From: a virus
Reading direction: 5' to 3' (one strand)
IMG/VR virus record: IMGVR_UViG_3300045284_000354
Coordinates: 1 to 41,611 of that record
Length of the DNA stretch: 41,611 bases
Of this stretch, positions 5,868 through 25,414 are shown one piece after another. A model generated the notes under the pieces. That model was not told the origin of the DNA and did not search any database. It saw nothing but the letters and a program-made list of their open reading frames with translations. Position numbers and translations under genes: made by a program. Positions within the stretch are counted from its first letter, which is position 1. Each line of letters starts with the position of its first letter.

Positions 5868-6137
5868 ATGGGCCCAGTAAGTCGCGCAGCGGTGCACAAA
5901 TTCCAGGGCTCCCTGCTGGATGCTGTGCTCCATTTGACCGAGGAGCTTCAGGCGCTCCGCAGCAGCATCAATCACCTAACGGGGAGAAACGCACTTGAGC
6001 TGGAGAGCGCGAATGAACGGATCGACGGGCAAGAGGAACGGTTCTTCCGACTCGACAAGCGACTCGAGCGACTTGAAAAATATGGACCCCTTGGACAAGG
6101 CTCGGGCCAAGCTCCAGGAGGCCAGGGAGGCGAATAA
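5868..6137 (+). CDS. Coiled-coil protein, unknown
   Basis: 89 aa, ATG two bases after the endolysin stop. The middle is heptad-rich and charged (ELESANERIDGQEERFFRL), predicting a coiled coil, and the C-terminus is a Gly/Gln tail. It overlaps the next gene by about 55 nt in another frame. It has no membrane segment. Being in the lysis cluster it may help lysis, but that is only context. Confidence 0.5.
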   Translation: MGPVSRAAVHKFQGSLLDAVLHLTEELQALRSSINHLTGRNALELESANERIDGQEERFFRLDKRLERLEKYGPLGQGSGQAPGGQGGE

Positions 6138-7398: not shown

Positions 7399-7598
7399 GA
7401 TTTCCTCAGCGCCAGGACGTTGACGACCAGCGGCGTCGCGTGCGGATAGCGCCGGTCAATCGCCAGCCGGTGAAGCGGCCAGCGGAGCAAGATGCAGTTG
7501 TCCTTCACGTACTGCCAAGAGACCTTGCCAGCACGGAACGGATAGAGAGGCCCCCAGCGTCGGAGCTGGCGACGAAGGCGACGGGTGCGGGCTCTCAC
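7395..7598 (-). CDS. Basic 67-aa protein next to HigA-like regulator
   Basis: 67 aa, GTG start overlapping the 648-aa gene stop, end overlapping the HigA-like gene. The first 15 residues are very Arg-rich, then WGPLYPFRAGKVSWQYV and a hydrophobic C-terminal strand. It occupies the place of a toxin gene but is shorter than HigB (usually about 90 aa) and lacks a recognisable HigB pattern. The function is unknown. Confidence 0.5.
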   Translation of the reverse strand: MRARTRRLRRQLRRWGPLYPFRAGKVSWQYVKDNCILLRWPLHRLAIDRRYPHATPLVVNVLALRKS

Positions 7599-11345: not shown

Positions 11346-11431
11346 TCAGGCCACGTGCTCCCAGCCGATGCCCTTGTATATCTTGCATACCAAAGCGGGC
11401 GACACGCCCAAGTCCGCGGCTATCTTGATTC
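11346..11431 (-). pseudogene. 3' remnant of the HNH endonuclease gene
   Basis: From the target duplication to the TGA at 11346-11348 the minus strand reads GIK-IAADLGVSPALVCKIYKGIGW-EHVA in the frame of the HNH gene interrupted upstream. KIAADLGVSPALVCKIYKG is a helix-turn-helix of the kind found at the C-terminus of phage HNH endonucleases. It has no start of its own and is cut off by the transposon. Confidence 0.85.
11424..11431. repeat. 8-bp target-site duplication, left copy
   Basis: CTTGATTC directly abuts the left end of the transposon and matches 13319-13326. Confidence 0.9.
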
Positions 11432-11456
11432 CATGCTCATCCGGTTAACTCCCACG
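11432..11456 (+). repeat. Left terminal inverted repeat of the transposon
   Basis: It begins CATGCTCATCCGGTT, continuing AACTCCCACG. The transposase TGA (11437-11439 on the minus strand) lies inside it. A near copy of its inner part (CCGGTTAACTCCCACG) is found again near the right end at 13227-13242. Confidence 0.9.
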
Positions 11457-12498
11457 GTCCGACCGCGACAGGGTGTACGCACTCGTCGCTGTACAGCTCA
11501 TCGTACGTCGGCGCTTCGCTCGTCGCCGCGATGCCGAGCAGCGAGCGAAACCCATTGAACGGGTAAAAGCGACGATTGAAGCGGAACACGAATTCGTTGG
11601 CGTAACTCTGGAGATGCTTCGGCGAAACGGAATGGTGAGTGCCTTGGAGCCAAGATTTGAAGTTGGAGAAAACCAGGTGAATCAGCGGCAAGTGAGCTTC
11701 GGCCACGGCGGGGTCGCCGCGCTCAGCAACGGGCGAATGGCGCACGCCACACTCCAGATCGAGCTGCGCGTAGCCTGGAAAGTCGTCGGTGCGGACAAAC
11801 GAGCCCTGAGCGATCGACTCGCGCGCGAACCCGAGCAGGCCCGGCGCGGTGCGGTCGGGCAGGACACGCAATCGCAGGCGCCCAGCGTAGGTGCCATTGC
11901 GTCGCAGCTTGGACTTGGCCAGCTTGCCGCCGTCCGCGGCCGGAGCGCGATGGAGGCTCTCCACGGCGCCGGCAAGGTAGACCTTGTGGTGGACGCCTCG
12001 CCCCTCGCCTCGCGTCGCGCCACCCACCAGCGACTCGTCCAGCTCGACCACCACGTTTTCGCCACCGATGCGGTCAACGTTCGGCCGGATCATGGCGGCC
12101 CGGAGCTTGTGCAGGATCTGAAATGCCGTCTCGTAGCGGGTCAAGCCGAGCTGCCTCGCGAACTGCGTGGCCGACATGCCCGGCGTCTGAGTGCTCACGA
12201 GATAGGCGGCCCAAAACCACGTACTGAGCGGGCTGTGCGTGCGGTGCATGATGGTGCCAGCCGTGAGGCTTGTGTCCTTGCGGCACGCCCGGCAACGCAG
12301 CACGCCGGGGCGAGCAGCAAAACGGAACGGGTCGCCACCCACACCGCAGGCGGGGCAGCGGAACAACTCGGGCCAGCGGCACCGCTCAAGGTAGGCGCCG
12401 CAAGCGGCGTCATTCGGGAAAAGCTTTTGGAATTCCGGCAGGCTGCGCGGGAATGGCAAACTACCCCGGTGCACGTCGTGGGTGGCTGCGGGGCTCAT
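11437..12498 (-). CDS. IS1595-family (ISXO2-like) transposase
   Basis: 353 aa. A zinc ribbon lies at Cys48, Cys51, Cys69 and Cys72 (CPAC...CRAC), followed by a helical HTH region (MSATQFARQLGLTRYETAFQ, 108-127). The ISXO2-like DDE domain shows Asp154 in VVVELDESLVGG, an Asp at 238/239 in RTDDFPGYAQL, and Asn279 in VFSNFKSWLQGTHH, with HLQSYANEFVFRFNRRF behind it; Asn in the third position is typical of part of this family. The length is normal and there is no frameshift, so it looks active. ATG overlaps the stop of a cargo gene, so the transposase is made from the cargo operon. Confidence 0.92.
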   Translation of the reverse strand: MSPAATHDVHRGSLPFPRSLPEFQKLFPNDAACGAYLERCRWPELFRCPACGVGGDPFRFAARPGVLRCRACRKDTSLTAGTIMHRTHSPLSTWFWAAYLVSTQTPGMSATQFARQLGLTRYETAFQILHKLRAAMIRPNVDRIGGENVVVELDESLVGGATRGEGRGVHHKVYLAGAVESLHRAPAADGGKLAKSKLRRNGTYAGRLRLRVLPDRTAPGLLGFARESIAQGSFVRTDDFPGYAQLDLECGVRHSPVAERGDPAVAEAHLPLIHLVFSNFKSWLQGTHHSVSPKHLQSYANEFVFRFNRRFYPFNGFRSLLGIAATSEAPTYDELYSDECVHPVAVGPWELTG

Positions 12499-12695
12499 TG
12501 GCCAACCGCCCTGGCTTGGGCGTCCTTGCACTCGTCGGCACGGAACGGACGGCCCTTGCCGTCGGTGTCCAGCGTGCCCGTGAACAAGCCACAGCGCGGG
12601 ATGCGCGGGCCAGGTTGCAAATACATGCAGCGCCCGCAGTGGTCTGCGGTGCACCGGATCTCGACTAGCGGCAAAAGCCGGATCTTAGCGTTCAA
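12495..12695 (-). CDS. Transposon cargo: small Cys-rich protein
   Basis: 66 aa from TTG at 12695, seven bases after AGGG; an ATG further up would overlap the previous gene much more. Seven Cys appear as CTADHCGRC, PRCG and ECKD, suggesting a small zinc-binding fold. Similar short Cys-rich proteins are common in phage and prophage early regions, but I cannot name a family. It lies inside the transposon and its TGA overlaps the transposase ATG. Confidence 0.55.
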   Translation of the reverse strand: MNAKIRLLPLVEIRCTADHCGRCMYLQPGPRIPRCGLFTGTLDTDGKGRPFRADECKDAQARAVGQ

Positions 12696-12933
12696 GCAAC
12701 CGCCCTTTCCAGTTGCGCGTAAGAGGCATCTCGCAAGCCTCGGCCAGCGCACTCTCACCAGCCTTAGTCAACCGCCAGCCGTTGCGCCAGCCGACGAGCC
12801 CTTGAGCTTCGAGCACCTTGTAGCGACCCTTGGGGACGTCGCCCGGATAGACGAGGGAAACTTCAGCCGCGAGACACTTCTTCATTGCCAAGATGTCCAC
12901 TGGCAGCAGAGCGATTTCGCTTCGATTGCTCAC
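12685..12933 (-). CDS. Transposon cargo: winged-helix-like protein
   Basis: 82 aa, GTG start in a GTGA overlap with the first cargo gene. The segment GRYKVLEAQGLVGWRNGWRL followed by TKAGESAL resembles a small winged helix (helix, wing, then a terminal helix as in marR-like or phage regulatory proteins). A DNA-binding role is possible. It is the second gene of the cargo operon. Confidence 0.5.
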   Translation of the reverse strand: MSNRSEIALLPVDILAMKKCLAAEVSLVYPGDVPKGRYKVLEAQGLVGWRNGWRLTKAGESALAEACEMPLTRNWKGRLLER

Positions 12934-13139
12934 GGCGACACCGCCGTCTTCAGTGCGCGCAAATTCTTGAGCAATTCCTCTGCCTGCTCGATCGCGTCAG
13001 CAAGCTCACCCAGGAAATCGGATGATGTCTCAGCCGACTCCAGAGTGGAGAAACTCCGCCCAAGATCTCGGATATTGCAGGTGACGTCCGAGTCATTCAG
13101 CTCTTCCAGCAGAGTTTCAATCGATGCTACGTTGGTCAT
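12930..13139 (-). CDS. Transposon cargo: acidic helical protein
   Basis: 69 aa from ATG at 13139 with AAAGGGA about seven bases upstream; an in-frame GTG at 13166 has no such site. The sequence is acidic and mostly helical (ADAIEQAEELLKNLRALK). No family is recognised. It is the first gene after the transposon promoter. Confidence 0.5.
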   Translation of the reverse strand: MTNVASIETLLEELNDSDVTCNIRDLGRSFSTLESAETSSDFLGELADAIEQAEELLKNLRALKTAVSP

Positions 13140-13166
13140 GTCGGAATCCCTTTCGATTTCGGCCAC

Positions 13167-13195
13167 GACCCCGGGTGTTTCAGCACCGCGGGGTC
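13167..13195 (-). promoter_or_regulatory. Leader hairpin of the cargo operon
   Basis: On the minus strand GACCCCG-C-GGTG-CTGAAA-CACC-CGGGGTC folds into a 7-bp stem, a one-base bulge and a 4-bp upper stem. It lies between the putative promoter and the ribosome site of the first cargo gene. It could stabilise the RNA or damp read-through transcription from the phage operon into the transposon. There is no T-run. Confidence 0.4.
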
Positions 13196-13210
13196 ACTCT
13201 GTACACCCAG

Positions 13211-13238
13211 AGCTTAGCGCACGGTTCGTGGGTGTCAA
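13211..13238 (-). promoter_or_regulatory. Putative promoter of the transposon operon
   Basis: On the minus strand there is TTGACA, a 16-bp spacer and TAAGCT. The -35 is perfect and the -10 is weak. It is the best sigma70-like signal in the transposon and points toward the cargo genes and the transposase. The -35 lies inside the subterminal copy of the inverted repeat. Confidence 0.45.
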
Positions 13239-13242
13239 CCGG
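13227..13242 (-). repeat. Subterminal copy of the inverted-repeat core
   Basis: CCGGTTGACACCCACG on the minus strand matches CCGGTTAACTCCCACG of the left end at 14 of 16 positions. It is a probable extra transposase-binding site and contains the -35 box. Confidence 0.6.
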
Positions 13243-13292
13243 ATACATGAGGGCGTAATGTCGATTGTTGGTAAGTGCGCGAAACCCTTACC

Positions 13293-13318
13293 CGTTGGGA
13301 GACAACCGGATGAGCATG
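13293..13318 (-). repeat. Right terminal inverted repeat of the transposon
   Basis: Read on the minus strand it begins CATGCTCATCCGGTT and continues GTCTCCCAACG, matching the left end. Confidence 0.9.
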
Positions 13319-13326
13319 CTTGATTC
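13319..13326. repeat. 8-bp target-site duplication, right copy
   Basis: CTTGATTC, identical to 11424-11431. On the minus strand it is part of the HNH codons for Gly-Ile-Lys. Confidence 0.9.
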
Positions 13327-13656
13327 CCATCTCGCCCCTGGCGCGCCGTCGCCTGATGGCAGCGACGTCACGCTCGGTAAGTTTAGCGCCTGGGTGTCTC
13401 GACCCAAACCTATGCCGTTTCTTTCGGACCATGTCGGCGGTGTTCTGAGCCGGGGTCCCTAGAAACAGATGAGAAAGTCGATAGCACAGTGGGTTGTCGC
13501 ACCGATGGCAAACAAACATACCGACGGGGATTGGCCCACGATGCCTTTCCCATGTCAGCCGATGCACTCGCTTGCTGCCCCATTTCCCGCTAGCGAACTT
13601 GACTGCTTTGGCACCGTAGCCGTTCACTATGCAGCCTCTCCATACGAGGCACGGGG

Positions 13657-13884
13657 TCACGAAACCTCCTCAATCGTCGCCCGCTCAGCCTCGGTCAAGC
13701 CGTCCCGACAGCGCGAATCCTCCGCCCCATCAACCCGGTCTATGTTGACCACCCGCGGCGCGTTCCGGATTCCGCACGCCTCGACGTAGCCACGGTAGTA
13801 CGCCAGCGCGAGCTCGAACGTCGCGAATGACGCCAGGCAGCCGTCGGAGCGGGACGAGAGGACTTCGTAGGGAAGCTTGGTCAT
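13657..13884 (-). CDS. Hypothetical 75-aa protein
   Basis: It starts ATG at 13884, overlapping the stop of the 49-aa gene; the longer upstream frame is antisense-like and was not used. It contains SDGCLASFATFELALAYYRG, a pattern like the small domains that read a substrate plus a position index, and a C-terminal helix. The function is unknown. It overlaps the HNH start by 4 nt. Confidence 0.5.
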   Translation of the reverse strand: MTKLPYEVLSSRSDGCLASFATFELALAYYRGYVEACGIRNAPRVVNIDRVDGAEDSRCRDGLTEAERATIEEVS

Positions 13885-23673: not shown

Positions 23674-23879
23674 TGCGTCGCAGCTGGACCCGAACAGCAA
23701 CCGAACTGCCCAAGCCAGGCGTCTGGCTCATGGGCACCGTACTGGGGCGCGAATACCCGATGCTGGTCCGGCTCAAGGTGGACGGCGCTGAGCCTTGCTG
23801 GGAGACGCGGACCGGCGACACGACTCCGCTCGCGGCATGCTCGCACTGGGACTACTTCGAGCCGCTGGGGCCTGAGTGA
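23673..23879 (+). CDS. Hypothetical 68-aa protein
   Basis: ATG at 23673 in a TGATG overlap, end overlapping the terminase start by 4 nt. Beta-rich (GVWLMGTVLGREYPMLVRL), probably a small barrel. No family is recognised. Confidence 0.45.
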   Translation: MRRSWTRTATELPKPGVWLMGTVLGREYPMLVRLKVDGAEPCWETRTGDTTPLAACSHWDYFEPLGPE

Positions 23880-25414
23880 ATTTAGAAAGTTTGCTCACCG
23901 CGCCTAATGGGTTCCAACTCACGAAGGCGACCAAGCTGCAGCGCGCCATCTGCCGCATGGAGACCGGCTTGCCGCTCGACGACCTAGCCGACTGCCCCGA
24001 AATCATCGAAGCGATCGGCGGCGCTCAGGCCCTGAACGGCCTGCCAACCGTCGCGCCGTCCACCTCCGTGCTCATGGCAGCGGTGCGGACCGCCAAAAGC
24101 CAGAAGGCGGCGGCCAAAGCGTTCCGGGCCGCGCAGATTTGCGACCTGAGCATGCTGCAGGACGGCGAGATTGCCCGCTACTCGGTGTGCAGCATCGACA
24201 AGGACAAGGCCGACGCGGTGCTCGAGCACCTGACAGGCAAGATTCAGGCGTCCGAGGTGCTGTCCGCCGCGCTCATCAAGCCACCGGCTGGTGACTCAAT
24301 CTTCTTGATGCACCCGAGCGGTAAGCCCGTCGAGATCAAGGTCATGGCCGGCAAGCGCGCTGGCGGCGGGCTCGTCTCGCGCTGGTCGATCGGAGCGACC
24401 TTCGACGAGGCACCGCGCATGAACGGCGCCGACAAGAAAATCAACCTGCCCGACTCCATTGTAGCTCTCCGCGCTCGCTTGTTGCCCGGCGCGCAGATTG
24501 ACCTGATTGGTTCGCCGTGGGGCCCGTCGGGGCTTATTTACGACCTGTTCGTTGACCGCTTCGGTCGGCCCGGCGCGGACATCCTGTTCATGGTCGCCAA
24601 AGGTCCGGACATGCACCCGACCCACTTCACGCCGGAGTTTTGCGAGAAGCTTCGGAGGGAGGACCCGACGGCGTATCGAACGGATGTGCTTGCCAAGTTT
24701 TGCGACCCGCCGAGCTCACTGCTCTCGAGCATCGACGTGGAGGCATGCAGCCGTAAGGCGCCGCTCGACCTGAACCCGAACAAGCAGCCGCATGTTGCCG
24801 CCATTGACCCGGCCAACCGCAAGAACGCCTGGACGCTGACCATCCTGCGCCCGAACGAGAAGGGCGACCCCGAGGTGGCATGCACGCGACAGTGGACCGG
24901 CAGCCACGCCGCGCCGCTTCGGTCGTCACGCACCTTTGAGCTGATTCGCCCGCTGCTCGAGCTGTACAACATCGAGGACAACCTGCTCTGGACGGACCAG
25001 GCGAACTTCGACGACAAGTGGGAGTTGGCGCAGACGGCCGGAATCACGCTGGTGGCTGACCCGTTCACCGATTCCGAGTGGCGCGCGCATGCCAAGCACC
25101 TCGAGAAGCTGGTCACGGAGCATCGCATCGAGCTGCCGCCGAACGCGGCGATGCGGGCCGACATACTGGGCATTCAGAAGCGGCTGACCGAGCGCAGCTG
25201 GACCATCGTGTTGCCGAACACGCAAGACGGACGGCATGGCGACTACGTTCCATCGCTCTGTCTCGGACTGAAACATCTTGGTCTGCCGGTGCTGAGCGCG
25301 GCGGCGAACGACACCTACGACGAGCACGAAAAGCGCGTGCTCGATTTCATCAACAGCTCCAAGTCCAACCCGATGCGGGCGGCTGGCGAGCGACTGAGGA
25401 GCGCGTTTTCATGA
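23876..25414 (+). CDS. terL: Terminase large subunit
   Basis: 512 aa, GTG start. This is the ATP-driven packaging motor and nuclease. A deviating Walker A, AAVRTAKSQKAA near residue 65, is followed by the Walker B/acid pair in WSIGATFDEAP near 172. The RNase H-like nuclease domain shows AAIDPANRK near 309, WTDQANFDDKWE near 372 and DGRHGDYVP near 455. It docks on the portal encoded two genes later. The lack of a G-K-S/T P-loop is known for some terminases. Confidence 0.85.
   Translation: MNLESLLTAPNGFQLTKATKLQRAICRMETGLPLDDLADCPEIIEAIGGAQALNGLPTVAPSTSVLMAAVRTAKSQKAAAKAFRAAQICDLSMLQDGEIARYSVCSIDKDKADAVLEHLTGKIQASEVLSAALIKPPAGDSIFLMHPSGKPVEIKVMAGKRAGGGLVSRWSIGATFDEAPRMNGADKKINLPDSIVALRARLLPGAQIDLIGSPWGPSGLIYDLFVDRFGRPGADILFMVAKGPDMHPTHFTPEFCEKLRREDPTAYRTDVLAKFCDPPSSLLSSIDVEACSRKAPLDLNPNKQPHVAAIDPANRKNAWTLTILRPNEKGDPEVACTRQWTGSHAAPLRSSRTFELIRPLLELYNIEDNLLWTDQANFDDKWELAQTAGITLVADPFTDSEWRAHAKHLEKLVTEHRIELPPNAAMRADILGIQKRLTERSWTIVLPNTQDGRHGDYVPSLCLGLKHLGLPVLSAAANDTYDEHEKRVLDFINSSKSNPMRAAGERLRSAFS

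Follow-up and report, generated by a model that had tools for sequence, protein, structure and literature searches.

Insertion sequences with passengers are an established kind of mobile element, and so are mobile insertion cassettes. The former, referred to as transporter IS, carry passenger genes and are known in the IS1595 family; the latter (MIC), as well as MITEs, consist of insertion-sequence ends around passenger DNA without a transposase and are presumed to be mobilised in trans. Phage genomes are known mosaics of small genes, in which a dedicated unit for the transfer of single genes between phages has rarely been identified. Here, we describe a 1,887-bp element in a 41,611-bp virus contig (the window, i.e. 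the whole stretch of DNA that was analysed). Judged by sequence comparison, it is probably (we put this at roughly 80%) an autonomous transposon of the IS1595 type, belonging to a phage-resident lineage that moves exchangeable phage genes and comprises both helper and non-autonomous forms.

The window element has the protein-domain and 8-bp duplication features of the IS1595 family. With ISAcr1-like members (ISXO2-type transposase) it has in common the zinc ribbon and DDE_Tnp_IS1595 domains and the 8-bp duplication; its ends resemble those of cellular relatives and appear related to those of this group (CATGC/CGTGC-C/T-TATCCGGTT). The bacterial relatives recovered in this analysis are mostly about 1.05–1.2 kb long with 3–184 bp before the transposase, whereas members of the virus lineage measure about 1.5–2.6 kb and contain exchangeable phage-type or uncharacterised genes. 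As in transporter IS, the passengers lie between the ends along with the transposase and occur at independent duplications; the virus lineage differs in that carriage is near-universal and cargo is replaced between close copies. The cassettes described below, such as the one in L203, resemble MICs in having ends, a target duplication and a passenger gene with no transposase, which is not the case for the window element itself. They differ from MICs and MITEs in being mostly single-gene, in lying in virus contigs, in the many genes involved and in a stereotyped end that often reaches the start codon. In integrons, single genes are exchanged as discrete gene cassettes, phages included (PMC9892861). 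The exchange of single genes as discrete units is a feature of both systems, whereas insertion is dispersed in the elements studied here, which are marked by inverted ends, 8-bp duplications and a DDE transposase. In the window element neither packaging nor replication genes were recognised, so that the features by which phage satellites are defined (an independent replicon with packaging or hijacking genes of its own) were not found there. We found no report in the open-licence literature of a phage-resident lineage combining near-universal exchangeable cargo with matching single-gene cassettes.

Structure and insertion site of the window element

The element and its surroundings comprise the following features, in window coordinates.

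11346–11423, minus strand: interrupted HNH endonuclease gene, 3' part
11424–11431, no strand: target-site duplication CTTGATTC, copy 1, exact 8 bp
11432–13318, minus strand: complete cargo transposon of IS1595 type (1,887 bp), its operon reading on the minus strand
11432–11446, plus strand: terminal inverted repeat CATGCTCATCCGGTT, transposase end, overlapping the transposase stop codon
11437–12498, minus strand: transposase, 353 aa, with zinc ribbon and DDE_Tnp_IS1595 domains (Pfam), under purifying selection
12495–12695, minus strand: cargo gene 3, 66 aa from ATG, Cys-rich, its stop overlapping the transposase start
12685–12933, minus strand: cargo gene 2, 82 aa from GTG
12930–13139, minus strand: cargo gene 1, 69 aa from ATG at 13139, acidic
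13140–13318, minus strand: conserved cargo-side end and leader, up to the first cargo start codon, common to L002 and L003
13167–13195, minus strand: predicted leader RNA hairpin
13211–13238, minus strand: sigma-70-like promoter candidate, TTGACA-16-TAAGCT, read by eye
13228–13246, minus strand: internal end-like copy TATCCGGTTGACACCCACGA
13304–13318, minus strand: terminal inverted repeat CATGCTCATCCGGTT, cargo end, 15/15 match between both ends
13319–13326, no strand: target-site duplication CTTGATTC, copy 2, exact 8 bp
13319–13660, minus strand: interrupted HNH endonuclease gene, 5' part

The preliminary description, made from the letters of the window, had proposed 15/15 inverted ends with an 8-bp duplication, an intact IS1595 transposase with a zinc ribbon, and three small cargo genes in one overlapping operon with it. 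All three proposals were confirmed. CATGCTCATCCGGTT lies on both sides and CTTGATTC directly outside, which delimits a unit of exactly 1,887 bp; the transposase matches the Pfam families DDE_Tnp_IS1595 (1.6e-27) and Zn_ribbon_IS1595 (8.7e-11), both above the curated cut-offs; and overlaps of 4 to 11 bp link the three small ORFs to one another and to the transposase start. Deleting the element together with one copy of CTTGATTC in silico regains a 139-aa HNH protein, which aligns with phrog_59 right to the C-terminus, showing that the insertion is real and lies within a phage endonuclease gene. The corresponding empty site was not found in relatives, the neighbouring exonuclease having no relative in the virus set, and a DNA search of phage records with the window region gave no match.

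The cargo genes had no detectable homologue in Pfam, PHROGs or the virus contigs, and AlphaFold models of cargo genes 2 and 3 were of low confidence (pLDDT 48–49; 49 for cargo gene 2). The winged-helix-like character and the likeness to phage early genes that the preliminary description gave to the cargo are accordingly tentative. Two of the starts are uncertain: for cargo gene 1 the 69-aa form from the ATG at 13139 is preferred over one of 78 aa, and for cargo gene 3 the 66-aa form from the ATG at 12695 is preferred, a GTG at 12758 giving 87 aa. Upstream of these genes, the predicted hairpin has the same 11-bp stem in three elements, among which four stem pairs are altered on both sides and none is broken (pairs counted by eye). 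The columns matching the candidate promoter, also read by eye, contain TATACT in L002 and CATAAT in L003.

PHROGs matches elsewhere in the window include exonuclease VIII, a helicase/primase, a head-tail adaptor, a tail spike and an internal virion protein. Searches of the window for a tyrosine integrase and for the phrog_2 terminase gave no match, and no terminal repeats were found in the record. The phage had been called lytic-looking, which is possible: the negative search for a tyrosine integrase supports it weakly, whereas the window, having no terminal repeats, may be incomplete, and several relatives of the element lie in integrase-bearing records.

Related elements in virus and bacterial contigs

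A scan of virus contigs identified two other records, L002 and L003, with transposases 95–96% identical in amino acids to that of the window. Both elements have the window's ends, and each has other flanks and its own exact duplication (GTTGTAAC in L002 and ATTCGAAC in L003). Similarity to the window covers the first ~190 bp, comprising the end, leader, ribosome-binding site and first start codon, and resumes at the transposase start codon to continue to the far end at 85–87%. The cargo between these fixed boundaries is unrelated, encoding proteins of 69, 82 and 66 aa in the window, 123 aa in L002, and 64 and 82 aa in L003. The same pattern of replacement was observed in further close pairs, such as L030/L034, L038/L039, L045/L047 and L176/L184. 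The flanks of L002, L003 and the related L004 match phage replication families. A large window protein (23876–25414) has a 40% relative in the L003 record and none in the L002 or L004 records, indicating that the carriers include different phages.

To compare these elements with their bacterial counterparts, a single script was used to locate the ends and exact 8-bp duplications in virus-contig and bacterial-contig relatives of the transposase, and an exact duplication was found in 87 distinct elements besides that of the window. The virus data consist of metagenomic contigs, some of them integrase-bearing, and one isolate assembly. In the first set, at least 426 bp preceded the transposase in every virus element, in contrast to 3–184 bp in most bacterial ones. 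A second virus scan, baited with a bare bacterial transposase, served as a control; in the combined set, inverted ends and an exact 8-bp duplication were located for 51 distinct virus elements, and 49 of these contained cargo of at least 426 bp, the two bare ones both coming from the single isolate assembly. After dereplication at 97%, the ratio of cargo-bearing to bare elements was 43:1 in virus and 8:19 in bacterial contigs (p = 4e-10). In the tree, both the presence of cargo and origin from a virus show clustering, and an independent-pairs test had too few informative pairs for significance. The window, L004 and L002, whose 97% cluster includes L003, together make up a clade of virus sequences only, and the bare bacterial elements group together. 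Five of the eight cargo elements from bacterial contigs (L070, L074, L122, L128 and L136) were placed among virus sequences, and the flanks of L070, L074 and L122 gave phage-type or integration matches. The phrog_2 terminase was detected in 12 of 24 virus records checked, and most of the 24 had no tyrosine integrase.

These comparisons bear on a simpler explanation, namely that an ordinary bacterial insertion sequence entered the phage and once trapped three neighbouring genes, the cargo being incidental. The closest named element, ISAcr1 (64% amino acid identity), is indeed bacterial, bacterial relatives of the transposase occur across many taxa, and passengers are also present in some bacterial members, AbiEii and Uma2 among them, which were assigned by reading the sequences to the bacterial-contig elements L069 and L100. 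Nevertheless, the nearest relatives (95–96%) sit in further virus contigs and have different cargo, cargo is near-universal in virus-contig elements and mostly absent from bacterial ones, and the window clade is virus-only, which makes a single accidental capture very improbable.

The preliminary description had suggested that the element is adapted to phages and moves between them, which is well backed by the recurrence at independent sites and by the contrast in cargo between virus and bacterial relatives. It had named as a refutation that the ends recur at no other insertion, which was not borne out: the search that it proposed, for the same element with different flanks, recovered ends and transposase in other virus contigs. 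The expectation that identical cargo would accompany identical ends failed, as cargo is replaced between copies.

Separately, L074, a cargo-bearing element on a bacterial isolate contig, adjoins a phage-type primase and is a candidate cultivable source.

Cargo turnover and selection

In 23 virus pairs the transposase DNA is at least 84% identical; similarity in the cargo region was detected in five of them, of which L170/L180 alone clearly shares cargo genes, the other four having short stretches or a shared leader in common. Common cargo was also found in pairs of lower transposase identity (L044/L047, L005/L009, L039/L188 and L041 with a second L039 element). The dN/dS ratio was 0.01–0.085 for transposases and 0.14–0.31 for recurrent cargo in pairs with measurable dS, and these low values suggest that both the transposases and the recurrent cargo are maintained for function. 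Most of the 96 cargo ORFs have no known function; a 4.1-kb L061 element was excluded from this gene set, given an apparent second, distant transposase of IS1595 type inside it. Named cargo of autonomous elements includes a Lar restriction alleviation protein, an RMF-like protein, and an N6_N4 methylase accompanied by a remnant of the XcyI restriction enzyme. The L044 cargo family has partial relatives in Klebsiella and Vibrio phage records and in an archaeal virus.

Cargo could differ between elements by capture of adjacent phage genes, through adjacent insertions followed by deletion, instead of by exchange between elements. Some capture of this kind would account for the extra left end of L038, for a fragment of a transposase start inside L172, for the two left ends of L016/L018 and for the end-like copy within elements of the window clade. 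Such remnants are, however, present in only a few elements, for which reason we rejected them as a general sign of capture, and the boundary of replacement usually falls right at the transposase start codon, which recombination in shared flanks fits better. We regard capture as the source of the differences as a tentative explanation, and the two routes may both be acting.

Some elements depart from the usual arrangement. Cargo lies 3' of the transposase in L037 (4946–6729) and L042 (4875–7437), the latter encoding an N6_N4 methylase of 468 aa on the other strand. In the L010/L183 element, which has weaker ends, the cargo seems to consist of a methylase gene with an XcyI restriction-enzyme remnant behind it.

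Transposase-less cassettes and a proposed mechanism

The fetched virus loci were also scanned for pairs of ends with exact duplications, whatever their content; the same combination of end pair and exact 8-bp duplication gave 0 matches in three dimer-shuffled copies and one reversed copy of the loci (1.7 Mb). At 7474–7990 of L203, a 517-bp cassette without transposase is bounded by the window's own ends CATGCTCATCCGGTT and the duplication ATTCGTTG; its single 157-aa gene has a DPPH motif and no Pfam match. A pattern scan for a common end subtype returned 108 stretches, and from these and the earlier ones 55 cassettes were defined, which are 293–927 bp long (median 568), with one ORF filling at least 70% of the cassette in 46 of them. 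Many share a left module that reaches the start codon. In 22 of the 55, a short frame starts from an ATG within the end and stops immediately before the ATG of the gene, which suggests translational coupling.

The same cassette genes recur at different places. Nine cassette clusters have genes in common across loci, always with different duplications; the L208 and L225 cassettes, for instance, are 98.3% identical over 363 bp and have different duplications. For the L278 and L304 cassettes, relatives have the precise empty site, with the target in one copy, and a transposase and a cassette reside together in eight contigs. The cassette end had 0 matches in 385 alphaproteobacterial genomes, which is weak evidence because far less DNA was searched there than for viruses. 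Pfam matches among 44 cassette proteins include Mom (two), NADAR (two), DUF1281_C (two), Dam, a C5 methylase, RlaP, ASCH and others.

The content of elements and cassettes also bears on the alternative of a purely selfish phage parasite, whose cargo would be passive or would serve the element, for example in transposition control, and not the phage. Fast cargo turnover, the large share of cargo with no known function and the disruption of the HNH gene by the window copy would all agree with such a parasite. We consider it unlikely, since recurrent cargo genes are under purifying selection and the named ones (Mom, Dam, Lar and the C5 methylase) are known phage protective genes with no obvious role in transposition; in the reading that we favour, cargo would be kept for the benefit of the phage.

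For the phage-resident lineage with exchangeable cargo, which we favour, we hypothesise a mechanism in which (i) an operon in which the exchangeable small genes precede the transposase would be expressed from the promoter and leader at one end, the stop codon of the transposase lying in the opposite end; (ii) the transposase would act on both inverted ends, and the unit would enter phage DNA by active transposition and duplicate 8 bp of the target, which in the window is an HNH-endonuclease gene; (iii) cargo would be swapped in the interval from the leader to the start codon of the transposase, the likeliest routes being recombination of elements that meet in co-infected cells or adjacent insertions and subsequent internal deletion; (iv) the same machinery would probably mobilise in trans the transposase-less single-gene cassettes with matching ends. 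Whether these parts form an integron-like, transposase-based phage cassette system, in which IS1595-type helpers and hopping single-gene cassettes spread counter-defence genes such as DNA-modification enzymes, seems to us evenly balanced. If true, a helper lineage with swappable cargo and its single-gene packets would constitute a defined route for phage gene trade, covering DNA-modification and other protective functions, known anti-restriction genes included, and the ends would offer a sequence handle for locating candidate counter-defence genes of no known function inside packets.

Several further observations concern individual cassettes and their records. In the left end of the L230 cassette (5954–6001), the ATG in the inverted end opens the leader frame MLIRLPHTNAETY, whose TAG abuts the ATG of the gene; an outward ATG is also present at the outer tip of each cassette end. 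The Mom-family cassettes at 2328–3146 of L016 and 893–1659 of L287 are 70% similar by tblastx, and the ends of the former are weaker (12/16). Comparison of L304 (5367–6182) with L046/L236 revealed one cassette nested in another, of which a relative has the uninterrupted form. Finally, terminase-like frames with in-frame stop codons occur in the records of L225 (G406, 40782–42110, one TAG) and L235 (G408, 11504–12979, one TGA and two TAG), where recoding, interruption or decay may account for them.
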